Shown here one piece after another: positions 272 through 64,000 of a DNA stretch of 64,000 nt. Numbering within the stretch: position 1 is the stretch's first letter; each line of letters starts with the position of its first letter. A program made the position numbers and the translations under genes. This DNA is from Tetradesmus obliquus (lineage: Eukaryota; Chlorophyta; Chlorophyceae; Sphaeropleales; Scenedesmaceae), in the NCBI GenBank assembly GCA_030272155.1, contig CP126196.1:930001-994000 (forward strand). Reading direction: 5' to 3'. Under the pieces are notes generated by a model that was not told the DNA's origin, did not search any database, and saw nothing but the letters and a program-made list of their open reading frames with translations.

Positions 272-373
272 CTGCGTTGAGTATGCTCATGAGTGTCGCA
301 AACAGTGTGGCCTCCACTCCCTCGGGGCACAGCCGCGCAGCCAGCACCAGGATGGGCATGAACGACACCTGGC

Positions 374-408
<35 letters not shown>

Positions 409-3400
409 CGACAACAGCACAATAGTGAGCAGTAGTTGCCGTGATTGCAACCACGTGAACATGTTGAACAACAAGCTGTGTCGCCAGCACGAACAGCGCA
501 TTGCTGAGCCACCACCGCTGACCCCCGCCAAATTCTATCAGTCGTCTAGCAGTACCGCACACCCACCTGCCCCAACACTGTGAGAATGACGCTGTCTCCC
601 AGCACAAGCAGCTCATCACTCAGCCCCGTCAAACATACCAATACAAGGCAGCAGCAGTATCATGCAGATCACCAAACCCACCTGCCCCAGCACTGTCAAA
701 ATGACGCTGCCAACCAGCAAGCACAGCTCAACGCTCAGCCCTTTCAAACACACAAACACAAGGCAGCAGCAGTAGCCCTCATCAAACCAAAACTCACCTG
801 CCCCAGCACTGTGAGAATGACGCTGTCTCCTGGCACAAACAGCTCGTCACTCAACCACAAAGGGGTGACCCCACAGAGCATCATGGTCTAGCACCTGGCA
901 ACACATCAATCACAGCACACCCACCTGCCCCAGCACTGTGAGAATGACGCTGTCCCCCAGCACGAACAGCTCATCGCTCAACCCCAGGGCCCTGTTGGCC
1001 CCAGACACCAGCAGCAGCTGCGTGGAGCCCAGGCCCACTCCCAGCAGCATCGCCCACAGCAGCATGCGCTTGAGGGGGACCTTCTTGAAGACCCCATTGT
1101 ACAGCGCCACACCTGTTTGCAAGGGTGGAGTTGCAGCAACAGCGCACACAAAGTGGTGAACAGCATGCGCTTGTGGGGAACGTTCTTGAACACACCGTTG
1201 TACAGGGCCACGCCTGCACACTGGTGTGATGCGGCAGCCCAGGGTGTGGTTATACAGTTTATACATGTTGTTTGGTGTTCCGTTGCACAGCGCTACTCAT
1301 GCAACATGGCACGCCCAGCAGCATCGCCCACAGCAGTATGCGCTTGAGGGGCACCTTCTTGAACACACCGTTGTACAGCGCCACACCTGCTTGCAAGGGT
1401 GGAGTTGCAGCACCACAGCACACAGAACAAACATAGATTTGGCATGCAGGTGGAACCTTTTTGAAGAAACCATATAGCTCTCGCGACTACAAATGCAAGT
1501 GTTCAACACAGGCCAGATGCAGCCAAACAGCACGCAAGCTGCTTCTGCTTGATACCTTGATGCGTAGCAGCTTGTTCCATTGCGTCTGTTATTGTGAAGA
1601 GACTTCAAAGAGCACAATGCCCACCTGCCAGCCGCGCCACCGAGCCTGCCAGCTGCACCCTGCCTAGGATTGCAGGTGCACAGGGCTGCTGCAGGGCCGC
1701 TGGGCAGACGGCAGCAAGCAACCCAACTGATATCAACTTGATATCAAGGTAATATCAAGAACAGGCAGACCCACCTGCCAGCCGCGCCACCGAGCCTGCC
1801 AGCTGCACCCTGCCTAGATTCGCAGGTGCACGGGGCTGCCGCAGGGCCGCTGAGCAGACGGCAGCAAGCAGCCCAACAATATCAACTTGATATCAAGAGC
1901 AGGCAGACCCACCTGCCAGCCGCGCCACTAAGCCTGCCAGCTGCACCCTGCCTAGGATTGCAGGTGCATGAGGCTGCTGTCAAGCCAGAGAGCAGACAGC
2001 AGTAAGCAGCCTGACCAACAACCAGGCAGACCCACCTGCCAGCCGCACCACCGAGCCTGCCAGCTGCACCCTGCCTAGATTCGCAGGTGCACGGGGCTGC
2101 CGCAGGGCCGCTGAGCAGACGGCAGCAAGCAGCCCAACAATATCAACTTGATATCAAGAGCAGGCAGACCCACCTGCCAGCCGCGCCACTGAGCCTGCCA
2201 GCTGCACCCTGCCTAGGATTGCAGGTGCATGAGGCTGCTGTCAAGCCAGAGAGCAGACAGCAATAAGCAGCCTGACCAACAACCAGGCAGACCCACCTGC
2301 CAGCCGCGCCACCGAGCCTGCCAGCTGCACCCGGCCCAGGAACTCCGGCGTGAAGTGCAGCTGGTTGGTGTAGAAGTAGAACATGGCGGTGTCTGCAGTG
2401 GGGGTGGCCTGCAGGGCAGCAGCGCAAAGGGCAGCATCATTTGCAAAGCACGTTGCCAACATGACATTACACCTGTGGCGGCTTGCTCGCCCTGCCGGCA
2501 CAGCAAGCATGTGTGACGGCTCATTCTGGCAACAACCGAGAACAGCTGCAAGTCGCACAGCAGCACCGCCAGCAGCAGCAGCAGTTGTGTAACAGCCGCC
2601 ACACCTGGGCCTACACACAGCACATGCCAAGCCCTTCTGAACTTTGCTCGCAGCAGCTGCAGCCTCACCTGCCACAGGAACACAAACACAGTCGGCAGCA
2701 GGATGTTGCGCTGCTTCACAGCTCCCCACAGTGCCAGCCCCTGCGCCACCACACTCTCCCCAAGCACTGCTGCTGCCCGCTGCCGCACCGTCAAACTGCT
2801 GCCGCTGCTGCCGCTGCCGCCGCTGCTGACGGCTGGCAGCAAGCCTTTGTTTGTGTTGCTGCTGCTGTTTGCCGCTGCTGGGGTGCGACTTGTGACTATT
2901 CGCTGCTCGTCAATCAGCAGCGCGCTGGCGCTCACAATGAGCGGGAAGACTGCTGTGACTGCAAACACGGTGTGTGCGCCGTAGTCCTGAACGAGGCTGC
3001 CGCTAAAGTAGGCGCTGGCGATGCCGCCTACTGCGCTGCTGGCCCAGCACAGGCTCTGCAGCGAGCCCGCGGTCGCCTGCAGCAAAGAAGACAAAGAAGC
3101 CTTGAGAATGCAAGTGCACACACCCTATGCACACATGCATTTTGGCTGTGATGCGTATCGTGGTGCAACTGCTGGCCCAGCACAGGCTCTGCAGCGAGCC
3201 CGCAGTTGCCTGCAGGGTGAGGGTTGAAACATGGAAGTGCATTTAGGGTTAAGGTTGGTTCAAACAGGCGTGTCCTGATGGTGATGAACATGTTTGGCGT
3301 GCTGCTGGCCCAGCACAGGCTCTGCAGCGAGCCCGCAGTTGCCTGCACAGGATGAAGGACAAAATACAACAGCTGAGTGGGCAGAGACTTTCAAGTGCAG

Positions 3401-4404
3401 GATCTAGCAAACAGATAGCATTGAGGCACCGCCAGCTGCAGCACAGGCTCTGCAACGAGCCAACGGTCGCCTGCAAGGAGAAGGGGTTGATGAATGAGGT
3501 GTGAGGTGGATTCAGCACCAAGATTGGCAGGTTAACGGGCACAGACATATATATTGGGAGTGCAGAAAGCATGTGCAGCTGAGGCATGTGCTGTTGTGTG
3601 TGTAAGATATGCATGGCCAGATGCATCCATCAGTCCTGGAGGTGCAGCAAAAGCGGCGACACATTTGCTGCCACGCGTTGCTGTTCCCCTTCACCAGTGT
3701 TGACACAACGGCATGAAGCATGCATGGCTGCCGCCATGCGTTACCGTCTTCACCTGTCATGCTTCAAACCATAACAGGTGAACATGCCTCTGACTCTCAC
3801 CATCGGCTCTCCCCTGGCCCTCTAGACAACCAAGCTGTCCACAACAACGTCGCTGCAGGCAGTGCTGCTGCCACACACTGCCACACCCTATGTATTACGT
3901 CATGCCATGCCTCTCCCCCTCACCATCGGCTCTCCCCTCGCCCTCTCAACAACCAAGCTGTCCACCACAACGTCGCTGGCAAATGCTACTGCCACGCATC
4001 ACTGCCACATCCTGTCACATTACACATGTACTCCGTCTCATCACTGGCTGGCCCATGGCATCCTAAATCGCCACGCTGTCCACAACAACGCCGCTGCACG
4101 CACTGCTACTGCCACGCGTTCCTGGCATGCCCTGTCATGTCACATTACGTCATGCCCTGTCATGTCACATTACGTCATGCCCTGTCATGTCACATTATGT
4201 CATGCCCTGTCATGTCACATTACGTCATGCCGCCTGTCTCACCATCGGCTCGCCTCGCGCCCTCTCCACCACTAAGCTGTCCACAACAACGTCGCTGCAG
4301 GCCGTGCTCAATGAGCCAAGCAGCATGGCTGCCACTGCTCCGCCAGGGCTGTGCACCAGCGTGGCTAGCGCCAGCCAGGATGCACTGCCTGCGCAACCAC
4401 ACAA

Positions 4405-4436
<32 letters not shown>

Positions 4437-7749: not shown

Positions 7750-8271
7750 ATGCAGCTTCAGGCCAGCAGCATTGCTGGCTCAGCATGGGCGGTAGGGACC
7801 TGCCCCCTGCTAGGGCCAGTCAGGTGCTTCACCAGCTTCAGCAGCAGCAACCGCAACAGACATGCCAAGCAAAGAAGGCACCATCATGCCCTGCAGCGAC
7901 ATAATCAGCATCAGCAGCAGCGTGTTATGCAGAGGGGTATCTGCACCAGTGCCTGGTCATCCATCCAACCCACTGAGCAGCTGCAGCAGCTGCTGCAGCC
8001 AGCACAGCAGCATCAGCACCAACCTCTTCCAAGGCAGCATTCAGGGCATTCTACAACCAGCAGCAGCAGCAGCAGCAGCAGCAGTTTAGCCAGCTTGACC
8101 AGGCGCCAGGTTGCTGCAGCAGGCTCGCTGCTGTTAGGTGTTGGGGGTCTGCTGCTGCTGCCTGCTGAGCCAGCACAAGCCAGCAAGCTTGGCGGGCTGG
8201 TGGACAGCACATGGGAGGCGATTGGCGGCGGCCCTGCTGACCTGTCATTCCCTGATGAATGGTGAGCGAGC

Positions 8272-8319
<48 letters not shown>

Positions 8320-8591
8320 GCAGAAGCAGCAGCGGCGGCCTTTTTACTCTGGCACGGAAAGCAACTGCACGCTGGTGTACAGGAGAGCGATCGCAGGGAG
8401 CTAGGGAGCCACCAGTTTGGGTTGGGGTGTCACTGCTATGTGCCAGGTCCCTAGCTGTGGCTGACTGTACAAGCAGCAGTGATCAGCAGCTGTGGCGTGA
8501 GGTGCCTGCCATGGGCTTTGCGGCTGCAGCAGCAGCCTTTCGCCACAGTGTGGCCAGCAAGATTGCACCGGCTTAGATATGTAACTGAATC

Positions 8592-8658
<67 letters not shown>

Positions 8659-8857
8659 AGCTTGCAGGCTGGGCGTGTGGGACGTGACCAGCACGCTGGT
8701 ATCAGTGGAGCTGCCAGAGGACTGAGCTATGATGCTGATGCTTATGCTGCTGCTGCTGCTGGCCCTGCTCCTGCTGCTGCTGCTGCTGCAGCTTGCAGGC
8801 TGGGCGTGTGGGACGTCACCAGCACGCTGGTATCAGTAGAGCTTCCAGAGGGCTGAA

Positions 8858-8888
<31 letters not shown>

Positions 8889-11800
8889 TGCAGGCTGGGC
8901 GTTTGGGATGTCACCAGCACGCTGGTATCAGTAGAGCTGCCAGAGGGCGAGGCAGTGGTGCCAAACATCGCAGCTGTGCGCAGGGCAGAGCAGCAGGACC
9001 TAGCGAAGCCGATGCAGTACCAGGTGGCCTTCATGCGCAATGACTCCGGCAAGGTGGTGTACGACAGGAGGTTCAACACGGCCGCGCTGCTGGCCACGTA
9101 TTACGGCTCGAACGTGGACTTTGCGGGGCGCATCCAGTGGGACGCCAAGGTGTGTACAGTGGCTGGCGCTTTGTGAGCGGTGTCCAGTTGCGCTCGCAGG
9201 ACCCTAACTCAATCATCCTCAACATGCCAGGGGATGTGTTTGGTTGTCAAGTTACCATGTCAGGTTCTCACCGCCTGTGCTGGCTGCTGCTGCCCGCAGG
9301 ACCCCAACTCGCTCATCCTCAACATGCCAGGGAGTGTGTTTGCTGATACCTACATGTCACATGTCAGGTTTTTAAGATCTCTGCTGCCCGCAGGACCCCA
9401 ACTCGCTCATCCTCAACATGCCAGGGAGTGTGTTTGCTGATACCTACATGTCACATGTCAGGTTTTTATGATCTCTGCTGCCCGCAGGACCCCAACTCGC
9501 TCATCCTCAACATGCCAGGGAGTGTGTTTGCTGATACCTACATGTCACATGTCAGGTTTTTATGATCTCTGCTGCCCGCAGGACCCCAACTCGCTCATCC
9601 TCAACATGCCCAGGTGCTTGTTGGCAACAGCAACATGTCACATGTCAGGTTCCATTATCTGTGCTCTGTCTGCCTCTGCTAATGCCCGCAGGACCCCAAC
9701 TCGCTCATCCTCAACATGCCGGGGGACATGAGCGTGCGCACGCGCGTCATGCGCCGCAGCGAGAGCCAAATCGGCACAGACAGGCTGGAGACGAGCGAGT
9801 TCTTGCAGCAGGTGCTGGACAGCGGCGACCCAGGTGAGCGTGGTTGGTGAGCTTGGAACATCTGTTGAACGGCCAAGTGTTGAAGCCATCGCGGGGAAAG
9901 TTCCTGCAGCAGGTGCTGGACAGCGGCAACCCGGGTGAGGCGATTGGCATGCGCAAAGCTGCACCATGCACCATGCAGCAGCATGTGTACACGGCAAAGG
10001 CGGGAAGAAGTTCCTGCAGCAGGTGCTGGACAGCGGCGACCCAGGTGACTGTTGTTGGTGAGTTTGGATTATCTGTTGCATGGCCAAGTGTTGAAGCCAT
10101 TGCGGGAAGGAGTTCCTGCAGCAGGTGCTGGACAGCGGCAACCCGGGTGAGGCGATTGGCATGCGCAAAGCTGCAGCATGCACCATGCAGCAGCATGTGT
10201 ACACGGCAAAGGCGGGAAGAAGTTCCTGCAGCAGGTGCTGGACAGCGGCGACCCAGGTGACTGTTGTTGGTGAGTTTGGATTATCTGTTGCATGGCCAAG
10301 TGTTGAAGCCATTGCGGGAAGGAGTTCCTGCAGCAGGTGCTGGACAGCGGCAACCCGGGTGAGGCGATTGGCATGCGCAAAGCTGCAGCATGCACTATGC
10401 AGCAGCATGTGTACACGGCAAAGGCGGGAAGGAGTTCCTGCAGCAGGTGCTGGACAGCGGCGACCCGAGTGAGCCTGGTTGGTGTGTGAGCTTGGTTTGC
10501 TGCCTTGAGGTTATCTGGTGAAGATAAAGCGGGATCGGGTCCTGCAGCAGGTGCTGGACAGCGGCGACCCAGGTGAGATACCCCTTTTTTGAAGCCATTG
10601 CCGTGCGAAGGAGTGCTTTGCTGTGGTGTGTACAGGCGTGGGACCGTGGTGTGGTGTTTGAATGGGCATCTGACACATCTGTCTAGAATTCGTCCTTATA
10701 AATCTGCAGCTAAAGGTCAGCGGCACCTTGCATGCAGCGCAGGACGGAACGCTGCTGCAGACCGCAAGAGGTGCAAATCATACTGCTTCTTCTTATGCTG
10801 TGTTTGCAATTCTCCTGTCTATTATCTTTGGTTGTGCTGTGTCATCCTGCGATCGCAGCGCGCCCCCGTGCGAAGGCCAGCCAGTGCTTCACAAGTTGTC
10901 TTATGGTTTGCTGCTGCTGCTGCTGCTGCTGAAGATGCTTTTCTGCTGTCCCTGCGTCTTCTTTGTCTGCAGCGCGCCCCCGAGTGAAGGCCAGCCAGTG
11001 CTTCACAAAGTACAAGTGGCGTGAAGAGGCGGCAGCAGAGGCAGCGGGCGGACCCGCCATTGTGGCTACACAGGTGCGGCAGCGGCAGCAGCAGCACCCG
11101 CTGCATTGCGCCGAGGGCAGCAGCAGCGGCATCGCTCGCTACCTGGACTACCTGACGCGGTGTGATTTTGAACTCGCCTGTTTGCATGCAACCTGATGCA
11201 GTCACTCCGTCAGCACACCACCTGTGTTGCTGCCTGCTGTGAGCAGGTGGTGAGCGACTACCTGACGCCCTTTGGCTCCAAGCGCGCCTGCTTGCATGCA
11301 ACCTTTTGCAGCCACTCACCACCGTTTTCTGCTGCCTGCTGTGAGCAGGTGGTGAGCGACTACCTGACGCCCTTTGGCTCCAAGCGCGCCTGCTTGCATG
11401 CAACCTTTTGCAGCCACTCACCACCGTTTTCTGCTGCCTGCTGTGAGCAGGTGGTGAGCGACTACCTGACGCCCTTTGGCTCCAAGCGCGCCTGCTTGCA
11501 TGCAACCTTTTGCAGCCACTCACCACCGTTTTCTGCTGCCTGCTGTGAGCAGGTGGTGAGCGACTACCTGACGCCCTTTGGCTCCAAGCGCGCCTGCTTG
11601 CATGCAACCTTTTGCAGCCACTCACCACCGTTTTCTGCTGCCTGCTGTGAGCAGGTGGTGAGCGACTACCTGACGCCCTTTGGCTCCAAGCTCGCCGCTT
11701 GCATGCAACCTTTTGCAATCACTCACCACTTTATTCTGCTGCATGCTGTGAGCAGGTGGTGAGCGACTACCTGACGCCCTTTGATTCTGAGGTGGACGCA

Positions 11801-12027
11801 ACCTTATGCTGCTCGTCGATCAACACACCACTGTATAACCTTGTCATTTTACACCACCTGTTCTGCTGTCTGCTGCACAGGTGGTGAGCGACTACCTGAC
11901 GCCCTTTGACTCCGAGGTGGATGCAATCCGCTACGCCAACCGGCCCGTCACCACCTACACCTACCGCATGGCATTCAGCAGGCACCACGACGCGCCGCAG
12001 GTGGCTTCTGCGGTGTCGCTGTCGTGA
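7750..12027 (+). CDS. Thylakoid-lumen protein, DUF6816-like, Tat-type targeting
   Basis: Five exons, 385 aa: 7750-8261, 8894-9149, 9692-9833, 10973-11073, 11881-12027 (stop TGA); phases agree and the sum is a whole number of codons. Residues 1-115 are a long Ser/Gln/His-rich transit region. At 117-133 comes TRRQVAAAGSLLLGVGG, a twin-arginine signal with hydrophobic core, followed by PAQAS, a plausible lumenal cleavage site. The mature part begins FPDEWLGVWDVTSTLVSVEL and ends DYLTPFDSEVDAIRYANRPV then TTYTYRMAFSR. From memory this order (FP-W-x-G-W-x-V-T near the start, Y-L-T-P-F-D and R-P-V-x-x-Y-x-Y-R near the end) resembles the cyanobacterial/plastid DUF6816 family, whose function is unknown; the family name needs a profile search. 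The introns hold copies of exon edges. Confidence 0.72.
8640..8893 (+). repeat. Two extra copies of lumen-protein exon 2 start
   Basis: A (CTG)n tract, CTTGCAG acceptor and coding for LGVWDVTSTLVSVELPE occur at about 8590-8720 and 8735-8855, then in the real exon from 8894. In the two upstream copies the frame ends shortly after the copied segment. Confidence 0.75.
9190..9691 (+). repeat. Five upstream copies of lumen-protein exon 3 start, period 94-104 bp
   Basis: CCGCAG followed by coding for DPNSLILNMPG starts at about 9201, 9300, 9394, 9488 and 9592; the full exon starts at 9692. The middle copies share a near-identical tail and 94-bp spacing, so they are recent. Confidence 0.8.
9834..10580 (+). 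repeat. Seven copies of lumen-protein exon 3 3' end and donor; 110+102 bp higher-order repeat
   Basis: TTCCTGCAGCAGGTGCTGG begins at 9901, 10011, 10113, 10223, 10325 and 10435, with one more near 10540. Spacing alternates 110, 102, 110, 102, 110, giving a 212-bp dimer. Each copy ends in CCAGGTGA or CCGGGTGA, a donor like the real one at 9834. Confidence 0.8.
11140..11880 (+). repeat. 102-bp array carrying lumen-protein last-exon start and acceptor
   Basis: GCAG followed by GTGGTGAGCGACTACCTGAC begins at 11247, 11349, 11451, 11553, 11655 and 11756, then in the real exon at 11881; a diverged unit lies near 11140-11200. The first five are exactly 102 bp apart. Each unit contains CAG|GTGGTGAGC, readable as an acceptor or a donor. 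Confidence 0.85.
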
Positions 12028-13200: not shown

Positions 13201-16200
13201 GGTGCACCACTTACACGTGTATGCTGCAACGCAACTCTATGTGAAGCCGCACACGCGGTGCATCATATGAAGGAGGCGTACCTGCACGCACCCTGCAAAC
13301 TGCTGCACCCCACCCACACTCAACTGCTCAACTGCTCCCAGCATCAAACCCTTCCACACCCCTTCCTTGCTAGGTCTTTGCCCGCCTGGCACCCCATGCA
13401 ACCCCTCTTGTTAAACCCCTCCTTTACACCCATTCTGATATTCCCCTGCCTCTTTGTACACTGTACAATTTCTTTTCTTGTTTCCCCTGCCTCTTTGCAC
13501 ACTGTACCCTCCTGCAGCTCACCGCCAAGCTCCCCTGCTGGGTCTTTGCCCACCTGGTACCCCATGCAACCCCTCTGCCTCTCCTTCGCATCCCTCTCAA
13601 TGTCTATATCCATCCCCCTGCCTTTCCTGTCAACTTCACCCTTGCAGCTGACCGCCAAGCTCCTGCAAGCGCAGCACCTGGTACCTATCTGTTACCCCTC
13701 TGGTGCGCCTTCTCATCCCTCCTGATATTATACTGATAATAGCTCCCCCGCCTGTTGCTTACTGTGCCCTCCTGCAGCTCACCGTCAAGCTCCTACAAGC
13801 GCAGCACCTGGAGGCTGACAGGGCGCGGCTGCAGGCAGAGCATCAGGTGCTGCACGAGTGCTGCGAGGGCCTGCAGCAGCTTCGGCTGCAGCGCGGCTTG
13901 CAGGACTTCGCAAGCGGGGAGGAGCTGGCCCTGCTGCAGCAGCTGCAGGTGGGGTTTGGGAAAGCGTTGCGCAAATCATGTGTGTCTGTCTGTCTGTGTT
14001 ACAGGATGTTTTTTGAGAGAGGAGGAGTTGTTGCATGTGGTCCTGCGGCACAACCGCAGATGGTGTGAGCCAGTGAGCCGTTGTTGTGTTGTCAAGCTGG
14101 TTTGGCACAGCTGGCATGCGCTGCGGTGCCGTCTGAAAGGTAATGATGCAACAACCGCTGCTGCAGCTGCAGGCGCGGCTTCTGCTGTACTTGGCGCAGC
14201 TGTTGTCGAGTCTGTGACGGTGCGTGAGTGCTAGGTCAGCTGCTGCAGATTGACGCTGCTCAGCTGTTGCTGCGCCTGCAAACTTCCTGCAGGCGTCGTG
14301 CAAGCGACTTGCAAGCGTCCTGCAAGCGTCCTGCAAGCTTCCTGCAAGCTTCCTGCAAGCAGCAGGTGCAGTGAATGCCGCGCTCTGACGCTGGAGCACC
14401 TCACCCGCGGCATCACACCCCAAATATGAGTGGCAACAGCATGACCTGCGCCTTGTGTGACAAATCTTTTTCTTTTCTTTTTGTTCTGCTGTGTGCTGCA
14501 GAGCATTCCCTGCAGCAGCTCGTCTGCCTGCGGCACCGCCCTCAGCGGCAACAGTGGCAACAGCAGCAGTAGCGGCAACAGCATGGGCAGCGACAGCAGC
14601 GATGCTGCGCGTCGCAGCATGGATGCAGCAGGCAGCCCCTGCACAGCAGCAGCAGCAGACCCAGCAGCAGCACCAGCAGTGGATGGCGGCGACTCAACAG
14701 AGCAGCATTTCTCGCCGCCGAATGACGTCATGTACTACTACCGCCAGCTGCTGTCGCTGCCGCCACGCCCAGGTGTGCCATGAGCTGCGTGTGCTGCTTG
14801 TGCTGGCTCGTACTGTGCAGTACAGTGTGTTGGGCAAGTGAGTAGGTCTGCATGTGCAACCCTGTCTGCGGGGCAACATCTGGTGCTTCAGTGCCTCAGG
14901 CCATTCTCATGCCTGCAGGCAGCTGGCTCTGTACTGTGGTCAAACTGCTCAAACCATGCAATGTGCTGGCAGTTGATTCCTGCTGTGGCCAAACTGGTCA
15001 AACTGGTCAAATTGGTCATTGACTTTTGTTTGCCACCTGCAGCTGCTCTTGTCACCGCCTGGCGCCCACCACAGCCAGGCTGAGCCAGCACTTTGCAACT
15101 GCCACCTCACATCGACAGCTGCTGCTGCTGCTGCTGCTGCAGGTGCCGACACTGTGACTGTGCAGGAGCTGCTGGCCGGCTATGCCAGCACGGTGCAGCA
15201 GCTGGCGCTGCAGCTGCACCTGCTGCGCCAGCCCGCCAGCTGCTGGCAAGGCAGCCAGGAGCCGCCACTGCAGAAGATTCGGCGGCTGATGCACGAGTGA
15301 GCATTTGGCAGCAGCATGCGGCAGCACCATGCCGCAGCAGCATGCGGCAGCACTATGCGGCAGCAGCAGGGCGGTAGCACAAGTGATCATGCTGATGTGC
15401 ATGTAACAGTCTCAAACCAGTCAACAAGCCCATATGAATTATAGCTGGAAGTAGCTGCAGCCAGTCACGGAAGCATCCAGTTTCACAAGTGGCTGATGCA
15501 CGAGTGAGCCTGCGGCAGCAGCACGGTCTTAGGGGGCACAGATGCCGCGATGACAGATTCGTGCTGCACTGCTTGCATGAGCTCTGTGTGCAACGCCCTT
15601 GCGCTGTGGTGTGCTGCTGCGCTGAGGAACATGCTGCAGCCGCAGGCATCGCCGCATGCTGACCGTGCTGCTGCTGCTGCTGCTGTTGCTGCTGCTGCAG
15701 GCACAACCACATGCTGGCGTCAGTTGTGCTGATGCAGCGCAGCGAGGTGATGTGGCGCTTCGCTAACAGCAACTTTGAGACGGGCGAGCTCAAAGAAGAG
15801 ATAGACATGCAGAAGCACGCGTGGGTGCTGCAGCAGCTGCAGCTGACACCTCAGCAGACCAGCAACATTGTGCGCTCCATGAGCTGCTTCAAGCGGCTGC
15901 TGACTCCACTGGTGCAGCAGCGGCAGCAGCTGCAGCAGCAGCTCGCGCAGCAGCATGATGAACCGGGCAGCGGCAGCAGCAGCAGCAGCGTGGACGCATA
16001 CAAGCAGTGCATGGCGCAGCGCGAGGCCATGCTGTTGCGGCTGGTCAATTTGATGAGGAAGGATAACATGCTACGCATGGCTTCTGCTACTGCTGTTGCC
16101 GGCTCACTGACATATGTGCAGCTGGCGACAGCAGTGGTGCAGGCGACGCCACGCCCGCTGGCACTTGGGGCGATAGGAATGCTGGTGCTGGAGCAGCATC

Positions 16201-16979: not shown

Positions 16980-17660
16980 GTACCACATCCGGATGCGTGC
17001 TAAGCGGTAGGCAGTGGGGATGGAAGGGCTGCATGGCTGGCACGGCTTGGGAGGCTGCATGCGGTTGGTTTAGCAACGATGTCTTCCTAATTATGCTTGA
17101 GGCAGTTGGACCTAATAGCATGCCATGTCAGCAGGTTGTTACGGCTGCATGGCTGGCACGGCTTGGGAGGCGGCATGTGTGTGGTTGAACAACAGTTGCG
17201 GTTCTTGAACAACAGTTTGTTTTACAACAATAGTGGCTGGACTCGGCAGCATGCCATGTCGGCAGGCTGTAGAGACCGCATGGCTGGAACAGCTTGGGAG
17301 GCGGCATGCATTTGGTTGAGCAACATATGTCTTTCTAGTTATGCTTGAGGCAGTTGGACCTGATAGCATGCCATGTCAGCGGGTTGTTACGGCTGCATGG
17401 CTGGCACAGCTTGGGAGGCGGCATGCGTTTGGACAAAAAACAGTTGTTGTTTTTTGACATTCAGTGTGGCGGCTGGACTCGATAGCATGCCATGTTGGCA
17501 GGCTGTTGAGACCGCATGGCTGGCACAGCTTGGGAGGCGGCATGCGGTTGATGAAACAACAGTTCGTTTTTTTACATTCAGTGTGGCGGCTGGACTCAGA
17601 TAGCATGCCATGTCGGCAGGCTGTTAAAATTGCATGGCACGGCTTGGGAGGCGGCATGCG
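16980..17660. repeat. Satellite array, unit about 118 bp, five to six copies
   Basis: Units contain GGCTGGACTCGATAGCATGC and CATGGCTGGCACAGCTTGGG. The shared GCATGCCATGTC anchor lies at 17118, 17249, 17366, 17485 and 17603. A more diverged flank begins near 16620. The same family reappears at 20285-20600, so it brackets the 186-bp array. Confidence 0.75.
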
Positions 17661-17999
17661 GTTGGTTGAACAACACAGTGTCTTGATACTCCCCTACTGA
17701 CCGATTTTTTTGGATGGATTTTTGCAGCGCAGCGACTACTGCGGCCCGTTGAACGTTTAATAATATCACTATTAAGACTATCCTCGCTGCTTTTGGCTCA
17801 TCGTAGCACACAGCGTCAGCACCCCCAGCTCCGTGTTGTTGCCCAAGTCACGCTCGATTACACGGCTGATACGGTGCCAAGCACCTGACGTATGTGTCTT
17901 TTACTTTCATAATTGAAAACAGAGGGGGAGGATTCTGTATAGGCGCTTCTTGGTGCCAGACAGCAGGGCGGGTGTGAGACAGTAGTACAGTAGAGAAGT
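17661..17999. other. Non-repetitive spacer, no gene recognised
   Basis: A short minus-strand open stretch at about 17770-17875 (HRISRVIERDLGNNTELG and on) looks protein-like but has no start, partner exon or recognised family. It could be a gene relic. Confidence 0.3.
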
Positions 18000-31794: not shown

Positions 31795-32059
31795 AGCACT
31801 TCAGCACCCAGTGCAACGCGCCGCCGCAGCTCACCCTCCACCCATGCCGAGAGATCACTTTGAAATCCCTTCTTCACGCCCCACTCGCCAGCAGAGGTTG
31901 TTCACTTATCCCCACGCTGAAGCAAGAGAGCTAAAGATAGGGGAAGCTGGCGGTTCAGCGCTGAGGGGAATCCTGCGCCCCAGCTCGCCCTCCAGCCTTG
32001 CTGAGTCAGCGCTTGCTGAGCCCCCTTCCACACCGTACCCCACTGCTGCATCAGAGGCT
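31795..32059 (-). repeat. Two downstream copies of the calredoxin-like gene's coding tail
   Basis: Minus-strand segments at about 31925-32000 (ARLEGELGRRIPLSAEPPAS) and 31795-31870 (VEGELRRRVALGAEVLASPI) repeat the terminal coding sequence that ends at 32060. They lie beyond the stop, in the presumed 3' UTR. Confidence 0.7.
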
Positions 32060-34393: not shown

Positions 34394-34435
<42 letters not shown>

Positions 34436-42269: not shown

Positions 42270-45200
42270 ATCTGCCCATCAGACACCCGCTGCCACCTTT
42301 CGCTGCCAGAAAAGTGGCTGTAGCTGCCGGGTGCAGGCCGCAACTGTACCGCCGACAGGCTCGCCAGCTGCAGTACATACGGCTGTAGCGCCAGATCAGC
42401 ACAAGGGTTAGGGTTAGGGTTTAACCCCGCACCAGCCGGCCCTAAACCCCAGCCCGCCGCGCTTGCAGGAACCGCGCCCACAGCGAACAGAAGCTCCTCA
42501 AATGCCGCCTGGCGGTCTGCTGCTGCTGCCGCACCGGCCGGCAGCGCAAGCAGCGACAGCGCCTCATACGGCAGCAGCGGCTGACCTGCGAGCCGCTGCA
42601 CTGCTAACAACTTTGGCAGTAGCTGCCCCTGCAGCAGCTGCCAGCCTTCTGCCGCAAAAATCTGCCGCATGCGGTCTAATAGTGCTGCTGCTGTGTCCAG
42701 CTGGCCCCGCTGTAGGGCTAGGACTGCCACATCTGCGTAGATGAGCGCGCTGCTGCGCAGGCGGCCGGCGCGTGCGTAGCACCAGGCGGCGCGGCGGCTC
42801 AGCGCCAGCAGCAGCTCCTACAGAACAGCGCACAGGAAGTTAGTTGAGAACAGATCTTTCACCTTCAACGCCATTTGAGATGTGAGCGGCCGGCGCGTGC
42901 GTAGCACCAGGCAGCGCGGCGGCTGAGGGCCAGCAGCAGCTCCTGCAAATACCATTAGGGAATAAAGGTGCATGTGAGATGTCGGATCAACTTGTTGAAA
43001 GAGTTGCGTTAAGTGTGCCACGAACAGCACTGCAGCTGTGCAGTGCAGCTGCTTGAGCAGCAGATATACAATGACTTACATACAGCGCTGTGCTGCAGGC
43101 AGTCGGCAAGCAAATGAGCACGCACATATGAAAAGACCTCACAACAGCCGCACACAGCAGCACCCGCACCTCGAAGCAGGCTGGGCTGCGCAGGGCCAGC
43201 TGCAGCCTCCACTCGACCAACCAGTCAGGCACAACAATCCACAAAATGGTACAGGCAGTCAATCAGGCAAGTACACTACACACGAAAGAGCGGAATTTAA
43301 GCACAACACCGCACGAGCGAAGCAAGCTGGGCTGCGCAGTCAATCAGGCACACAAAGTTGGTTGGTATCCAAAATCCGACCACAAAAACGCAAATTGAGC
43401 AACCGCAAAACCTCAGCGCCCTCACCTCAAAGCATGCTGGGCTGCGCAGGGCCAGCTGCAGCCTCCATTCGCCCACCCAGCCAGGCACGCCAGCAGCGGC
43501 TGACGCAGCAGCAGCAGCAGGCAGCGACGGCTGCTGCTGTGCTGCGCCCCTGCTGCTGCTGCCACCATTAGGTGCCTGCAACACCAGACAACGGCAGCAG
43601 CAACACGGTTCATGGTCGGACTGCACGCATACAGAACATTGAGGTAGCGTGGCACACTCGCCAGCGATGTTGCAGAGAGCAGCGGCACAGCTGCAGCACC
43701 AGCACACAACGCCACCATGGTGCTCGATACACAAGGAACGCAGTGCGGCACCTAAGGCAAACTTGGCTCCCCCATCACAGCAGCTACTAGCTGCAAGGCC
43801 AATCGCCAGTCTGTGGTATCATCTGCAGATGTGTGAGACTCGTAATCCCGGATGCAAAGCAGCAGTGCAGGAGGACACTTCTTATAAATCATGCAGCGTG
43901 CTATGCAGCCTGGCAGTTGGCACCAGCCGCCACCCACCTGCAGCGCAGCGATGGCGCCAGGGTCCACTAAACCCTCCAGCCGCCGGGGGCTTAAACCGCC
44001 ATTTGTGCTTAAACCCCCCGGCCTGACCAAACCCCCAAAACCGCCACCTGCCGCGCCAGAAGTGCCGGCACCACCAGCAGCAGGCAGCGCACTTGCGCTG
44101 CGGACGTGTGTGGCGACCTTTGGGGGTGGTGGGCCTAAACTCAAGGCAGGTGTGTCACTAAGCCCTAAACCTGAGGCTGCTGACAGGGACGCTGCACTGG
44201 GGTTTATGCCTGCTGGTGCGGTGCGGGCGGAGTCGAGCACAATACCAGCCTGCAAGCAGCATGATAAAGGTTTGTTTTACCTAACTGTGGTGGATGAACT
44301 GATAGAGATCAAGGGATGAGGCAGCAAATGCTGCTGTGAAGCACGCTGTGAACGTCTGCTACGCATCACATAACTGGCACAACGTGCTCGGCACTCCTGA
44401 TTACGCGTGCAGATGCACGTACGAGTGCTCCCTGCCCCAGCTGCGGCATCCCCGCCTGCTCATTGACATGCACTGCTGACTGCGCTTCTGGCAGCATGCA
44501 ATAAAAGGCCGCCTCTCCTATCTACTCTGCTCACCCGGCCAGCAGCAGCACTGCTGCCACTGTCTCCATCAGCAGCAGGTGGCCCCACCCTTGCTGTTGC
44601 GGCGTCACCGCTGCTCTCTGTGTCTGCATCACCACCACCAGCAACAGCAGCAGCAGCAGCAGCAGCGCCACCTGGTGCAGCGCCACCCTCCGAGGTACGG
44701 ATGTTGATGGTGGCCAGACTTGAAAATGACTCCGCACGGCTCATCTCCCCACCCCCACCAACACCTGCATCCTCTTCCGCTGCTGCTGCTGCTGTATCGT
44801 CCCCGCTGACCTTACTCAACCTGCTTTGCTGCTGCTGCTGCTGCTGCTGGCCAGCTGCTGTGCCCCCGCTGCTGCTGCCAGCAGCGCCCGCTGCACTGCT
44901 GCTGTTGCTGCTGCTGCCGCCACGCCACATCCTATCAAGCACACCGCCACCACCACCACCAGCAACAGCAGCAGCAGCAGTGGGGCTGTTGCCTGCTGTG
45001 CTTGCTGCGCTGCTGCTGTTGGCGATGCTAGTGAAGCTGTTGAGGTAAGGCGTGCTCTGGGAGTCTGCCCGGCCCAATGCAGCAGCCAGCGGGTCCTGCA
45101 GGCACACAGACGAAAGGGTTGCAAATGTTTAAGGGCCGTGTTGCAAGACCGGAAACGAGGAAGATGGCAACGGTGTGATAGCGTCCTGCATGCATGAAGC

Positions 45201-46112: not shown

Positions 46113-49100
46113 CAGCAGCAGCAGGAGCAGCAGCAGCAGCAGCAGCATTGATGACGGCAGCTCGACCATTGATGTACTGCATACTACAGCAGGTGTGCAA
46201 GCGCAAACCACAACCCTTGCTTCGAGATCTCAGCCACTCAACCGAGCGCACGCCCTCATCCTACAAACAGGCTGCTGCAGGCCTGCAGGCCTGCCGTGCC
46301 ATACAGCCTAGTAGAACTGCCCAGACATCCCGATCACCCAGCACCCCGCAATGCATACCCACCTGCGCTGCTCGCCAGCCTGCAGCAGCAGCCCCGCAGT
46401 GCCAGGGGTCACCGCCTGGCCCCGCAGCACCCCCAAATCCAGCGGAGGCACATCCTGATCATACTCATCAAGCACGCCTAGCACCCCAGCAGCAGCAGCG
46501 GCAGCGGGAGTGCTGCTGCCGCTCGGTGCTGCCTTGTCGCTGCTGCTGCTGCTGCCGCCCATCACTTTGATGGCAGTGGAGGAGGCATCGAGCTCCCACT
46601 CAGAGCCTGTGAGGATTGGCGTGCTGGCAGAAGTGGCACCGGCACTGCCGGCAGCAGCAGCAGCAGCAGAGGGTGCTGCGCCGCCTCCTGATGGCGAGTA
46701 TGCAGCAGGCGATGGCGAGGTGATGATGCTCCTGATGCGGCCCCTGCAGCAACAGCAGGCATACAGCTCCTATATGCTCGTCAAGTGAATGAGAGGGCAA
46801 GCCTAAGACGCAAGCCGCAGCTAGGCAGCCGCTGCGAAGCAGAACGCAAGCAGATTCCACAGCAGCTAGCTGCTATGCTACGCTGCCAGCACGGCCACCA
46901 GCATGGCACATCCACGTTGCCACTATGCCAGTTGCACTCACGCAGCTTGGTTACTTGACAAACATGCTCCCATCCATCAGCAGTCAGCAGTGTTAGCCGC
47001 CGCATTTCATCCGCATATCATCCACATTTTCCAACCTGTCACTCTCAGTGCTCCTCCTAGTGCTTGCAGCAGCACGCAGCTCCAGCCCCAAGCTGCCCCC
47101 AGCAGCAGCAGCGGCAGCAGCAGCAGCCTTCTCAGCCGCAAGCGCTGCCCCCAGCTGCCGCACAGCAGCCTGAGCTGCGGGGCCTGCAGGGCCGCTGTTG
47201 CTGCTGCTGTTGGCGAGGTCGGAGGTATCCCACTCTGGCTGGAGGTTGCTGCCGCCGTTGCTGCTGCTGCTGCGCTGTGCGGAGGCGGCTGTGACTGCAG
47301 TGATGAGTGCCATGCATGCACTGAATGCCCAGCACTGCGGCAGCAGCAGCAGTGGCGGCGGAGAAGCAGCAGATGTGTGACCATGCTGCCTGCGCTCGTT
47401 GTGATAGGCTGCTTGGCTGCTCAAAGCACGCCTGAGCAAACCCCCAATGATGTGCAGTGTAATGAAGGCGAGCACACATCCTTCAACCCCGCCATCCTCA
47501 CATTGCATTGTACATCATTTTGCTACACATGCCGCAGCGTACCTCCTTCAAAGGTGCGCTGCTGCCTGGCGCTGCTGATTTCCCGGGAAGTGCTGCACGC
47601 ACAAGCAATTTGTACCTTGAACAATCCACATGTGCCGCACCTCCTTGAACCACGGCTTGACCAGCCCTGCTGCCTCGCGTGCAGCCAGTATGCCCAAAAA
47701 GTGCTGCACGAAGACCAGCCCACGCTCAGCCACATCAACGGGGCGCCCCAGCCGCAGCAGCACACGCGCCTGCAGCAGCAGCAGCGGCAGCAGCGGCAGC
47801 AGCGGCGGCGGCAGCAGCAGCAGCAGCAGCAGCAGCGGCGGGCGGCGTCAGTGGGTGAGCCAGGCATGCCAGGCGTGACATGTCGTTTACGCTGCTATGA
47901 ACGGCAGGGTTTACACTGCTGCTATGCACGGCAGGGTTTAAGCTGCTGCTATGCATGGCAGGGGTGACAGGTCATATACGCTGCTATGCGCGGCAGGGTT
48001 TACGCTGCTGCTATGCACGGCAGGGTTTACGCTGCTGCTATGCACGGCAGGGGTGTAAGCTGCTGCTATGCATGGCAGGGCTGAAGCTACTGCTGGGCAT
48101 GGCAGAGTCTGCTCACCTGTGCCGCGAAGAGGTACTGCCGGAAGTGGAACTCCTGCACGGCCTTCTTACACAGCACCAGCCGCCGCATGCCGCGCCAGCT
48201 GCTGCTCAGCAGGCTGGCACAGTCTTCGGAGTCACTCCGAGTTAGCCCTGCACGCACAAGCAACCAAACACAGTTCAGAGTGCCGCTTCTAGATCTACAG
48301 GCTTTGCAGGGGAAGTGACAGCAGCTCAGCAGGCTGGCACAGTCCTCGGAGTCACTCCGAGTCAGCCCTGCAGGCAGGCAGGGAAGCGTAAAGGGGCAAA
48401 GCAGACCCCACGCATATGTTGTGGTGCAGTCCTCGGAGTCGCTGACGGTCAGCCCTGTGCATCATTACAAAGGGAAAGAATACAGAGGAACACAATAAAA
48501 TGCACGTGTGCTGCAGTGTGACAAACTGCGTGGATCATCAGCCACGCAGCGCTTGCCATGTTGCCACACACGCTCTTGCACACACTTCATTGAAGGCTGC
48601 ATCGCACATGTCAGCTTTCATCCACAGGCTCTCGCGTTGCTAGCACCCATTGAAACATTGCAGAAGGCACATCACGCACCAAAGTCTGCCGCGGCCCGCA
48701 CTGCTGCCGCAGCCGCCTCTGCCGGCGTCGCTGCTGCTGCTGCCGCTGCTGCTGCTGCCGCCTCCAGCGTGTCCAGGTACACCGTCTCCAGCTCCACATA
48801 CTCCTGGAAGGCGTCTTCCCTGCAGGGAGAATGACAATGTAACAGTCACAACAAAGAGAATAACAGTGTGCCACAACATCACATGCAAGCTGTCGCAAGT
48901 GCTCCAAGGCCCGAGTATCGCAGTGCTTGGGCTGCTGACGCTGCTGCTGAACAGACAAAATTGCCTCGTTCATAACATAAGATAACATAACACTAAACGC
49001 TGTCCTTCACTACAGCCCTGCCCCCTCCAGCATCAACGCAGAGCTGTCCTTGACCAGGTACAGCATGGTGAACAATGATTGTTTTTTCACACAATATAAC

Positions 49101-52100
49101 ATAATACAAAACACTTCCGCTCACAACAGCCCAGCGCCCTTCAGCATGAGTACGAAGCTGCCCTTGCCATCACAGCGTGGCGAAGGACCAGCCCGGGTGT
49201 GGACACATATCTTTGTCACATAACATGACATAACATAACACATTATAACACGACATCACACAAAAGCTCCCACCCACCATAGCCCTGCCCCCTCCAGCAT
49301 GAGCGCGAAGCTGTCCTTGACCACGTACAGCGTGGTGAACAATCATTGTTTTGTAACACAACATAACATAACATAACACAAAACACTCGCGCTCACCACA
49401 GCCCTGCGCCCTCCAGCATGAGTGCAAAGCTGTCCTTGACCAGGTACAGCGTTAAAAAGGACCAGCCCGGGTCACGCCGCTCGTTCAGCAGCCGCCGCAC
49501 CTGCAGAAGAAACAGGCACAAATACAGGCGATGCAGTTGGTGGTTTACACGTAAGCAGGCGAGGGTTGCTTGCTATCTCAGCAGCAGTGTGTGAAGGAAC
49601 AGCCCGGATAGCGCTCAATCAGCAGCCGCCGCACCTGCAAGCAATCAGCAATGCAATTTTTGCAGTCAATAGGGCCGGCACCAGCAGGTGTTTGCTGTGC
49701 AGGCATGTCACTGATGCATGACGCATTTACCGCAGTGACAAACCGGCAGCTTTGAGCCTGCTCAGTGCAATGAACCCCATAGAAAGCGTAGTATTCCTAT
49801 TGCTAACATCCAATGTAACAATGACGTCCATGACTTGCCTTCGCGTCATATGCTGCCTGCCCTCACCACCACAGACGGGTTGACTCTGCTGCAGACAGTC
49901 AAAACTTCAACGTACCAGTCAACATAACAAGTTCTAGTCAAACCAGCCCCAACCCACCTCTGCGTCATATGCTGCCTGCCGCGCCTCAAAAGCAGCACGG
50001 ATGCTGTCCCGCAGCCCAGTACACAGCTCATCCAGCCCAGTCGCTCCAGCGCCCCAAACCCCTACACCCTGCGCCGAGCCGCCGGCCTGAACCCCATACC
50101 CCGGCCTGCTGCTGCTGCTGCTGCCGCTGCGCGCTGCTGCTGCTGCTGCCGGGCCTGTGAAGGCTTGCAGGGGTATGTCGAGGCGCACGACGCGCTCCCG
50201 GCGCTTGCTGGCAAAATCGTCACAGAGCTTCTCAAACACTCGCCTGCAATGATAGGTGAAGATTGTTGCAGCCACATCAGCAGCGCAAGGCACACAAGTT
50301 GGGAGTTAGAGACTCTCAATCACAAGCCTGATGTACAGCGATATTGCATGTGCATGACAGCAGGGGCGTCAGCGGTACAGGGAGCAAACCAGACAGAGCT
50401 TTCACCCCTAAGTCCAGCTCACGGGGCTGCATCAGCATCGCAGTGTGAAGTCCAAAGTGCGTGAATATATCAGATTCAAACTGCCCGCGTGAGAACTAAC
50501 AACTGGCATTCTGCCTCCACGACATGCACATGCAGGCAACATCACCGCGCAATGCTGCTGTTTCGACTGCCGCCGTCGGCCCCGCTGCTGTTGCTGCTGC
50601 TGCAGCAGCTGCTGCAGTTGCCGCAAGGCGTCATCGAACCACAACCCCGCCTCACCTCACGCTCTTGTTGTTGAGGCCCAGCTGAAACGGCCACACAAAC
50701 AGCGGCAGCGAGTGGCTGCTACTGCATGGCACCTGCTGCTGCTGCTGCTGCTGCTGCTGCGGCAACAAGCCTCAGGGCCAGCTCACCTCACGCTCTTGTC
50801 ATTGGGATCCAGCTCGAAAGGCCGCACATACAGCAGCAGCCACTCGCTGCTTCCACCACTGCACGCTGCTACATGACACCTGCTGCTACTGCTGCTGCTG
50901 CTGTTGTACTCGCAACAGCTCACCTCGCGCTCTTGTCATTCGGGTCCAGCTCAAACGGCCGCACGTACAGCAGCAGCCACTCGCTGCCAATGCCTGGGCC
51001 GCCCCATTCGCGCTCGATGTCTGACGTCACGCGCTTTAGCTGCGCGCGCAGCGTGGACTTGTACTCGTGCACGTCAGCAGTGGACACCTGCAGTGCGGCA
51101 TGCGACACACAGGTGTGAACAGTAGATTGATAGAGTGCAGCAGGCAGCTGCGCGCGCAGCATAGACTTGTACTCGTGCACTCAGCGCTGGACACGTGCGG
51201 CACACAATCAGAAGCAACATCGGCAGTGGTGAGGAACAGACTTGTAGTCGTGCATCTCAGCGCTGAGACACCTGTGGGCGCAGCGCGAGACCGTTGCTAA
51301 AACCCTCTGTTGAAGCCTTGACTCAACCGCACCCGTAGCAGCTGCACCTGCTGCTGCATGCCGTTGCTGTCGCTGCCTTGCTGCCTTCTGCTGCACCCTC
51401 TCTCGCATCACTGCCCTGACAACAGCTCAAGCTGCAGTTCCTGCTGCTGCTTTCTTTGTGCCCGCAAGCCCTCACCAGGATCAAGTGTGTGTGTGGGTTC
51501 CTGAACCAGGTCACTGGGCTGTGGGAGTACTGCTTCAGTCGCTTGAGCCGCATGTCTGTAGACAGCACAAACCTGCATGCAGCAGCAGCAGCAGTAGCAG
51601 CAGCAACAGCTCACAAATCCGCGGCACGGCCTGATATGATGTCACTGGGCTGTGGGAGTACTGCTTCAGTCGCTTGAGCCGCATGTCTGTAGACAGCACA
51701 AACCTGCATGCAGCAGCAGCAGCAGCAGCAGTAGCAGCAGCAACAGCTTACAAATCGCGGCACAGCCTGATATGATGTCACTGGGCTGTGGGAGTACTGC
51801 TTCAGGCGCTTGAGCCGCATGTCTGTAGACAGCACAAACCTGCATGTTCAGCAGCAAGCACAGCAATACACCAGCAGCTCATGCACCGGCACGGCTTGCT
51901 GGTTACGCTGCACTGCGGTGCTGTGCCTTGCGCTGTGCTGGTGTGTGCTGCCGCTGGTTGTGGTGAGCTGCGTTATACAAAGAGCACAGCACACCATAGA
52001 TGACACCACACTGCACTGCACTGCACCGCACTGCACTGCACTGCGTTGCAAGTGCAACCAGACAGCCCTGCCCTGGTTGGAATGCCGAGACAGGCAATGA

Positions 52101-52944
52101 TTGTACTGCCAAGCTTGGCTGCATGGATTGCCTGGTTCGACTGCTGTGTACTGCCTGCCTGACCTGCCCTGTGCCTCCTCAAGTCATGCCACAGCTGCAC
52201 TGCATAGTCCTGCACTGCATAGTCCTGCACTGCATAGTTCTGCACTGCCTGTTGTTGCACTGCATGTTGCTGCACTGCCTGTTGCTGCACTGCCTTTGCT
52301 GCACTACCTGTTGTTGCACTGCCTGCTGCTGTACTGCCTGTGGCTGTACTGCATGTTGCTGTACTGCCTGTTGCTGTACTGCCTGTGGCTGTGCAGCCTG
52401 CACTGGATGTGCTACCTGTTGCTGTACTACCTGTTGCTGCACTACCTGTTGTTGCACTACCTGTTGCTGCACTGCCTGTTGCTGCACTGCCTGTTGCTGC
52501 ACTGCCTGTTGCTGCACTGCCTGTTGCTGCACTGCCTGTTGCTGCACTGCACTGCGCTGCACTGCACTGCTCTGCGCTGCACTGTACTGCTTGTGCTGCT
52601 GTTCACATGAGGGGCAAGCGCGGCACCGCCACCGGCTTGTCGACTGGTGTTGGGCAGCGCTGTACTGCTTGACAACTGCACTGCACTGCCTGTCTGCGCT
52701 ACACTGTTCTGCCGGCTGGGACGCACCTTCCTGCCTGACAAACCAGCACTATCGGCCTGAACAGACGCCACAGCCGTTGCTATCATTGCTGCACTGCTTG
52801 CTGCGGTGCTGCTGTCCTGCATGTACTGCCAGTTGCTGTAGCGCTCACATGAGGGGCAGGCGTGGCACCGCCACCGGCTTGCCGACCTTGTTGGGCAGCG
52901 TGATGCCCCGCAGCGGCAGCCGCGACTCCACCAGCTGTGTACGA

Positions 52945-62776: not shown

Positions 62777-63023
62777 TCACTGAGAGGGTGAGAGGCTCTG
62801 AAGATGATTGTTGAGGGACCGCCAGACCGTGTACTCGTGAAGGCTGCCTTTGGCTGCATGCATGTGGATGCATGGTGCATGAAACAGTAGACCCTGCTGT
62901 GCATGTGACTATTGGGCAGAATACGTTGGCCCCTGGAACCCGCGTGCAAAATGTTGTTGAGGTTGGGGTGCCGCATCCCCGACATGCGCCACACGATGTG
63001 GTGTTATGTTACGCGTGCATTCG

Positions 63024-63081
<58 letters not shown>

Positions 63082-63083
63082 AG

Positions 63084-64000
63084 GCGCGCCAGGCGCTGGG
63101 CCTTGGCTCCGATGTTTTCGTTGCCAGCAGTCTTGATGCGCACGAGGCCACCCTGCGTGAGCTGGCCGACTTTGCTGCGCCGCTCAGGGCCATTGAAAAG
63201 GCCACAGGGCAGTTCAACCAGGACACTGCAGGTGTGTTATGCACACTTTGAATGCACCGCTAAGCGAGACTGCTTGGGCTGTGACAGCGTCAAAGCATGC
63301 AAGCCAAGCTGCCTGTGCCTGCTTGGCACACCGGCTGCCCGCCACCTTTGTACACCTGTTGTTCACACGCGCTGCTGCACGGTGGCTCGATGCATGCTGC
63401 CAACCTCAACTCCTCCGCTGCTGCCGTGTTGCAGAGTTCCTGCAAGCCACCACCATCCTCATGTCTGCACCAGCTACCCAGCACTTGTGTAAATTGGCTG
63501 CCTACTTGCGCTGCTGCTAACCTTTCTGCACTTCCTGCAGACATCCTGCAAGCGACAGCTACCCTGATGGCCTTCTGCCCCTTCCGTGGGCCTTGTCGGC
63601 TGTATTGCCACTTTGCTCACCCTGCATCCGCATGCAATCCTTCTGACAACAACTTCCCGCTGCTGCCCGGTTGCAGAGTTCCTGCAAGCCACAGCACCTG
63701 CCCCTTCCCCCGCATGTGGTTCCAGCTCTCCTCCACAGAAGCCGCAGTGCCGGTGCACGTGCCTGAGTTTGCAGTGCTGTGCAAAGTAGCTGCCCCGCAG
63801 ACGCTTTCGTAACGCACACATCTACTCTGTCTGCTGGTCCTGCTGCAACCCTCCTGTACCTGCGTTGCCGCAACTCCACCCACCCCTTTGCACTTCCTGC
63901 AGAGTTCCTGCAAGCCACCGCCACCCTGATGGCCTCCTGCCCCTTCCCCCGCATGTGGTGCCAGCCCTCCCCCACAGAGCCTGCTGTTCCAGTGCATATG
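63084..64000 (+). CDS. Unrecognised protein, partial, continues past right edge
   Basis: Exon 63084-63231 follows a long (CTG)n-CAG acceptor and encodes ARQALGLGSDVFVASSLDAH, then ELADFAAPLRAIEKATGQFN. It joins in phase 1 to the exon from 63903, which runs off the window (EFLQATATLMASCPFPRMWC and QPSPTEPAVPVHM). The 5' end is not located; a frame beginning near 62804-62872 may hold earlier exons. No family recognised. Three extra copies of the 63903 exon start lie in the intron. Confidence 0.5.
63430..63902 (+). repeat. Three upstream copies of the right-edge gene's exon start
   Basis: GCAG or CCTGCAG followed by coding for (E/D)(F/I)LQATATLM-like sequence begins at about 63435, 63541 and 63677, before the complete copy at 63903. 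The third copy lacks part of the segment but keeps FPRMWFQLS. Confidence 0.75.

Follow-up and report, generated by a model that had tools for sequence, protein, structure and literature searches.

Tandem copies of exon edges in introns of Tetradesmus obliquus and their possible origin in frequent local duplication

A 64,000-nt stretch of nuclear DNA from Tetradesmus obliquus, a chlorophyte of the family Scenedesmaceae (the window; C6:930001-994000 of a 104.66-Mb genome in 17 contigs) carries genes for a BT1-family transporter, a DUF6816 lumen-type protein, zipper protein 1, a calredoxin-like protein and a TRAPPC10-like protein, together with a ZNRD2-like gene and a gene at its right edge. Many introns of these genes hold copies of the edge of an adjoining exon, donor-type copies repeating an exon end and acceptor-type copies an exon start, and the copies often form tandem arrays (Table 1). 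The lumen gene model agrees with the annotated OEZ85 protein P0002 (100% identity over the aligned 92% of residues 120-385). The calredoxin-like model was aligned to the UniRef T. obliquus protein P0072, probably that of strain UTEX393, to P0073, a protein of a relative, and to a protein of Scenedesmus sp. NREL 46B-D3. The N-terminal half of the TRAPPC10-like model was aligned to OEZ86, NREL 46B-D3 and Gonium proteins.

The frequency of edge copies was estimated in a 304-kb sample consisting of the window plus its 10-kb flanks (84 kb) and 22 other stretches (18 of 10 kb taken from elsewhere in the genome, on C6 or other contigs, the remainder forming one continuous 40-kb segment of C1). Genes were modelled with a purpose-written hidden Markov model gene finder trained on the same 304 kb, and not from cDNA. 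Predicted genes with fewer than 300 coding nt were dropped, leaving 55 genes, and 239 introns were left once 36 predicted exons had been removed as near-copies of a neighbouring exon. The known faults of the models are two genes that are each split in two and one TRAPPC10 copy called as an exon. The donor consensus learned by the gene finder is CAG|GTGAG(C/T) and the acceptor consensus is CTGCTGCAG|G, where CTG runs stand in place of a pyrimidine tract, a feature that may bear on CAG/CTG richness. An edge copy was scored when the first or last 60 nt of an exon matched within the adjoining intron at a score of at least 36, simple repeats being masked. Slightly laxer gap costs were used for the array-level set of 72 edges in 62 introns, with 148 copies.

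About one quarter of the introns (61/239) contain a copy of the edge of an adjoining exon, 31/81 in the 84 kb around the window and 30/158 elsewhere. Donor and acceptor edges are similarly affected (39/239 and 32/239), and the TRAPPC10-like gene has at least eight affected introns. As controls, exon edges of other genes matched introns in 0/2390 comparisons and the exon interior (100-160 nt in) matched in 1/233. The first-pass annotation of the window had proposed that exon-edge copies with their splice site occupy many introns, lengthening them and offering spare splice sites. The arrays do lengthen introns and carry intact spare sites, and they are much commoner than chance would allow. At the laxer gap costs, copies that reach the junction keep GT in 66/75 cases and AG in 49/51. 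The mean T. obliquus intron is given as 462 bp in the Raphidocelis genome paper (PMC5966456). The repeats are direct and adjacent and combine exon edge with intron, which is the arrangement of tandem duplication across boundaries, and the spacing between working edge and nearest copy has a median of 127 bp over the 72 edges (quartiles 113-151), only one spacing being below 90.

Other parts of the first-pass description were too broad. Copies were said to decay with distance, but mean identity at ranks 1-5 is 0.90, 0.91, 0.91, 0.93 and 0.91 in the 18 arrays with at least three copies. Zipper protein 1 has a single copy (13648-13682) rather than an array, the copies at the right-edge gene lie beyond the window, and the four introns tested in the ZNRD2-like gene contain none at a score of at least 32.

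Table 1. Genes, exons and exon-edge copies located in the window (positions in the window).
Feature	Position	Strand	Remarks
DUF6816 (PF20670) lumen-type gene	7750..12027	+	Clean 385-aa frame; Pfam; copies in all four introns
Lumen gene exons	7750-8261, 8894-9149, 9692-9833, 10973-11073, 11881-12027	+	
Lumen gene, intron 1	8599..8888	+	Two acceptor-type copies of exon start 8894; junctions 226 and 95 nt upstream
Lumen gene, intron 2	9198..9651	+	Five acceptor-type copies; working exon downstream at 9692
Lumen gene, intron 3	9798..10577	+	Seven donor-type copies of exon end 9833; stretch begins within exon
Lumen gene, intron 3	10859..10895	+	One acceptor-type copy of exon start 10973, by eye
Lumen gene, intron 4	11228..11783	+	Six acceptor-type copies, 102-bp unit, upstream of working exon 11881
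Zipper protein 1	13648..13682	+	One acceptor-type copy of exon start 13778
BT1-family transporter (Pfam BT1)	450..853	-	Donor-type array of exon end 925; four copies, spacing ~116
BT1-family transporter	1741..2336	-	Donor- and acceptor-type array, 123/138-bp units; working unit less certain
Calredoxin-like gene, intron 7	32234..33128	-	Three donor-type copies and one acceptor-type copy (junction 32345)
Calredoxin-like gene, more edge copies	33222..35394	-	Introns 35394-35026, 34252-33669 and 33518-33222; exons between
Calredoxin-like gene, past stop codon 32060	31917..31989	-	Diverged coding-end copy; longer window only; no splice site
TRAPPC10-like gene	39214..40040	-	Seven donor-type copies, 112-bp unit, of exon end 40004
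TRAPPC10-like gene	42886..42942	-	Acceptor-type copy of first 57 nt of exon 40673-42817, 95% identity
TRAPPC10-like gene, further edge copies	48248..52848	-	Six introns; exons between
TRAPPC10-like gene, affected introns	52848-51385, 51332-51088, one starting 50923, 49957-49501, 49396-48820, 48679-48248	-	

For three genes (lumen, calredoxin-like and TRAPPC10-like) a comparison was made with orthologues, in which the additional copies are missing. The copy continuous with the exon body is therefore the working one in these genes, as the first-pass annotation had supposed for all. Two public models still include one copy each. P0001, the public model from the source genome, has a copy from lumen intron 2 as an extra in-frame exon of 21 residues, and without those residues it is exactly P0002. 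P0072 includes a 15-residue copy, belonging to calredoxin-like intron 7, in frame at the same junction. This insert reads VRSTPALSLFQAGD and the copy of the source genome reads VRSTPVFFLFQAGD; no copy in the window matches VRSTPALSLFQAGD, so another assembly also has a copy at the calredoxin junction. P0073, which appears from its accession to be transcript-derived, is without the copy, though its gene may lack the array. Copies may vary between strains far more than the working exons do. Public T. obliquus annotation may hold more intron copies as unproven in-frame repeats (window 9287-9651 and 32234-33128).

The first-pass annotation held that the repeat unit straddles a splice site each time, and it suggested either a mutational process at work on exon borders or descent from splicing intermediates. 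However, coding ends are also copied past stop codons, where there is no splice site. At matched settings such copies were seen in 7/46 genes, two of them artefacts of split genes, and the sound cases (5/44) do not differ from donors (39/239; p = 0.50). Longer windows add one sound case, giving 6/44. Intergenic arrays have the same unit length as those at edges (median 119 bp in 15 arrays vs 127; Mann-Whitney p = 0.21), and the copying is probably not splice-specific.

Placement of the arrays gives a divided answer. Among 82 introns with repeats, 71 have repeats touching the exon, against 56.4 expected (1.26-fold) when a unit of the observed length is placed at random on the reconstructed original intron, a null from which visibility bias is not removed; none of 20,000 simulations reached 71. 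The other 11 have internal repeats only (offset at least 60), so the claim that every array touches an exon border fails. When arrays are placed by Tandem Repeats Finder (TRF) alone, those that straddle a splice site are no commoner than expected (17 vs 20.6), although TRF misses diverged working copies. On the donor side, repeats cover 20% of the final 20 nt of the exon and 2% at 100-150 nt in, approximately as for random placement of a 120-bp unit. Copies at start codons were found in 2/43 cases, both artefacts, leaving 0/41 (p = 0.007 vs acceptors), with predicted start positions being unreliable; an additional start codon upstream would be expected to do harm, which may be why starts are spared. 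After cleaning, splice edges (71/478) are copied more often than start and stop edges together (5/85; p = 0.025, raw p = 0.32).

Splicing-coupled or splice-site-directed copying of exon borders, splicing intermediates included, would fit the edge excess, the last of these comparisons and the fall in similarity near the end of the splice consensus. The stop-codon copies and the unit length shared with intergenic arrays speak against it, as do the retained GT and AG, which free exons and mRNA do not have, and we consider it very unlikely. Splice specificity was set aside on the stop-codon control, with the 0/41 at start codons kept as a caution.

Five coding-internal arrays have a period of at least 40 (42, 48, 54, 102 and 189), all multiples of three. 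TRF also reports many short arrays of 20-50 bp, mostly within introns or within coding sequence. At exon edges only 14/68 spacings between working edge and nearest copy are divisible by three (p = 0.03 vs one third), and in-frame spacings seem to be disfavoured. Two non-genic arrays in the window (17017-17675 and 20293-20577), about 3 kb apart with units of ~117 and 114 bp, look related by eye, and between them lies an array with almost nine copies of a 186-bp unit (18491-20116). Elsewhere, fourteen 279-bp units outside predicted genes (L024:16-3959) adjoin an intron with a 345-bp array.

The differences between copies and working edges follow the codons. The codon comparisons kept 68 of the 72 edges, four (in L018 and L024) being excluded as possible larger duplications, and the result is unchanged when all 72 are included. 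When the working edge is compared with its nearest copy, 62/1237, 59/1252 and 208/1230 sites are different in codon positions 1, 2 and 3, respectively, a third-position ratio of 3.48 (bootstrap 95% interval 2.73-4.46). In a neutral simulation on the same sequences, which lets the copy drift and allows the working edge synonymous changes only, the ratio is ~1.6. Position 3 differs more than the other positions in 60 edges, with the reverse in 5 and equality in 3. Among 1192 codons there are 188 synonymous and 112 nonsynonymous differences, or 0.60 nonsynonymous per synonymous against 1.34-1.36 in the neutral simulation; these counts still include the TRAPPC10 false-exon edge (intron 4 acceptor; 3 synonymous, 7 nonsynonymous). 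With that edge left out, the three protein-checked genes contribute 17 edges, which have 41 synonymous and 18 nonsynonymous differences (p = 3e-5). In the TRAPPC10-like array at 40004, six copies share one sequence over 40 nt, and its three differences from the working edge are all synonymous as read by eye. Stop codons are rare in the copies (2 in 1178 codons), and only one indel was found across the 36 edges whose functional exon is at least 150 nt long.

Such a pattern would arise if the copies were working, translated alternative exons or splice sites, kept protein-like by selection, and P0001 and P0072 do each annotate a copy as an in-frame exon. Copies past stop codons, which are untranslatable as placed, nevertheless show the same bias (26 synonymous and 11 nonsynonymous in the six sound cases; binomial p = 0.0008 vs the neutral share), and the bias cannot in general be due to copies being translated. 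The 68 nearest copies contain 24 indels, of which 23 shift the frame; in-frame spacings are few; and the relative's P0073 manages without the copy, with the proviso about its gene given above. Nor is there a clear excess of matching opposite splice sites (56/79 vs 176/263 for donor-type and 26/58 vs 75/206 for acceptor-type copies), on which ground copies as mini-exons were rejected. Maintenance as alternative exons is in our view distinctly unlikely as an explanation.

The copies depart from their working edges most strongly in the intron. When aligned without gaps, donor copies (32/37 edges) mismatch at ~7% on the exon side and ~42% at +7 to +12, and acceptor copies (22/31 edges) at ~7% on the exon side and ~50% at -15 to -7, values inflated by indels. 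Position by position, donor copies have 0-5 mismatches in 32 on the exon side, 1-8 at +1 to +6 and 11-16 from +7, while acceptor copies have 0-3 in 22 on the exon side, 1-3 in the three intron bases next to the junction and 8-14 upstream of these. A freely decaying simple tandem copy should at most double the mismatch there, indels apart. Exon parts are more conserved than intron parts in 28/29 arrays, a comparison biased by the copies having been found by their exon parts. In young arrays the units include an intron part, which in older arrays is often unalignable, and the strict gap limits of the extent measurement underestimate the intron parts of units. The flank cannot be aligned in 40/126 copies, of which 36 keep the splice dinucleotide (25/28 GT and 11/12 AG). 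Selection on the splice sites of copies was rejected as a cause, as modest decay predicts nearly the same retention.

Copies could also be kept edge-like within a single clonal lineage, by gene conversion or by turnover of the arrays. At L023 the first copy and the working edge share an identical 49-nt intron flank and differ in their exon parts, so units have been exchanged. However, clonal turnover simulated at five exchange rates gave nonsynonymous to synonymous ratios of 1.54-1.67 against the observed 0.60, and a ratio of flank to exon divergence of at most 1.35, the observed flank mismatch being several-fold higher. Although the simulation is simple, with a single lineage and no population, these values make clonal turnover unlikely. 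An assembly artefact, for example haplotype switches, would itself yield protein-like differences and, for single copies, unrelated intron flanks. It is highly improbable, as P0072 bears, at the matching calredoxin junction, a copy whose sequence is absent from the window, and five to eight near-identical units per array are not two haplotypes.

Our data demonstrate the pervasiveness of the copies, their unit length and their presence at stop codons as well as splice sites. The explanation we favour, with a probability of roughly 0.57, is frequent tandem duplication of ~95-165 bp in which coding edges are kept and stay visible longest, exchange between alleles being a proposed part of it. Duplications of this size would be frequent in T. 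obliquus, both in genes and between them. Those within coding sequence would be retained only when in frame. A duplication overlapping the edge of a coding block would be tolerated, the intact edge staying on the exon and the extra copy coming to lie in the intron or 3' flank. The conserved working edge would keep these overlaps recognisable after duplications in neutral DNA have blurred, and arrays would for this reason seem to sit on exon borders. The 1.26-fold edge excess may be due to such longer visibility beside conserved sequence. Once two copies are present, unequal exchange could gain or lose further copies.

The codon pattern suggests that copies diverged from the working edge largely while they were working edges themselves. 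Paralogues were dropped as their source, no second gene copy having been found for the lumen protein or for one TRAPPC10 exon, and other alleles are therefore the natural source. Exchange may often have taken place between diverged homologous chromosomes. Unequal exchange of this kind would place the working edge of the other allele, with its own intron flank, behind the resident edge, and many copies would then be former working edges of other alleles. An allelic source would account for the protein-like differences and for splice signals that are intact but varied. That introns and 3' flanks store the former coding edges of other alleles, as a partial fossil record of the allelic variation of the species, is a tentative possibility to which we give less than even odds.

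Several observations weigh against frequent duplication with allelic exchange. Edge copies are unevenly distributed, with 0/21 introns affected in the 40-kb stretch on C1, and the lower bound of the unit at ~95 bp is unaccounted for. The excess of exon-touching introns, the higher rate at splice edges and the spared start codons, all given above, count in the same direction. The allelic part requires a synonymous divergence of ~0.14-0.18 between alleles, but between OEZ85 and OEZ86 the lumen protein differs in nothing except the copy, and P0072 is 100% identical to the calredoxin-like model outside its insert. Differences between one copy and another are also codon-patterned (62/1059, 64/1057 and 126/1033, or 5.9, 6.1 and 12.2%), and one allelic event for each array would therefore be insufficient. 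The frame-shifting indels fit poorly with copies that were coding until recently, and the jump in flank mismatch is partly a product of ungapped measurement.

If frequent duplication is the cause, T. obliquus would show intron growth in one lineage by local duplication, with coding edges left behind as debris, and the unproven repeats in its public gene models (P0001 and P0072) would be explained. Should the allelic part also be true, exchange between diverged chromosomes could be measured from a single genome, and the arrays would be natural tests of how the spliceosome chooses among up to eight or nine near-identical sites.

Among the top-ranked matches of our searches of open-licence PubMed Central papers, we recognised no report of pervasive or genome-wide exon-edge copies. 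Introners resemble the present case in bringing about mass intron change within one genome (PMC9860276). An introner spreads copies of one element through many genes, whereas in T. obliquus each unit is confined to the exon edge from which it derives. No introner-like spread was seen here, either in the 0/2390 matches to edges of other genes or in a genome search with one array, which returned its own neighbourhood and one 38-bp match. Closer in phylogeny, tandem repeats in Chlamydomonas and Volvox are reported to be enriched near intron ends (PMC3887541), so green-algal repeats concentrate near intron-exon junctions there too; the parts of that survey drawn on here give repeat density and motifs and do not describe exon-edge copying. 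In rad27 yeast, internal tandem duplications arise from misprocessing of Okazaki flaps (PMC13202174). That link is to a replication defect and is offered for T. obliquus only as a lead on unit length.

Intron gain by tandem duplication of AGGT segments, described for ATP2A1 and fission yeast (PMC4974935), likewise combines tandem duplication with splice sites. In that account the unit is wholly exonic and supplies both splice sites, whereas units in T. obliquus also contain intron and leave the original splice sites of that intron in use. In the arrays that were read, no wholly exonic unit with both GT and AG was found, an intron tail or head standing beside the exon part. Another likeness is a potato gene with one tandem duplication across an intron-exon boundary (PMC4974935). 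The duplication spans the end of the intron and the start of the next exon, and the upstream exon copy has become partly intronic. As reported, the potato case concerns a single gene and a new intron; in T. obliquus existing introns have been lengthened, in about a quarter of those sampled, often by repeated events and at donors, acceptors and stop codons. The T. obliquus copies are thus known kinds of event on an unusual scale, together with an unexplained codon signature.

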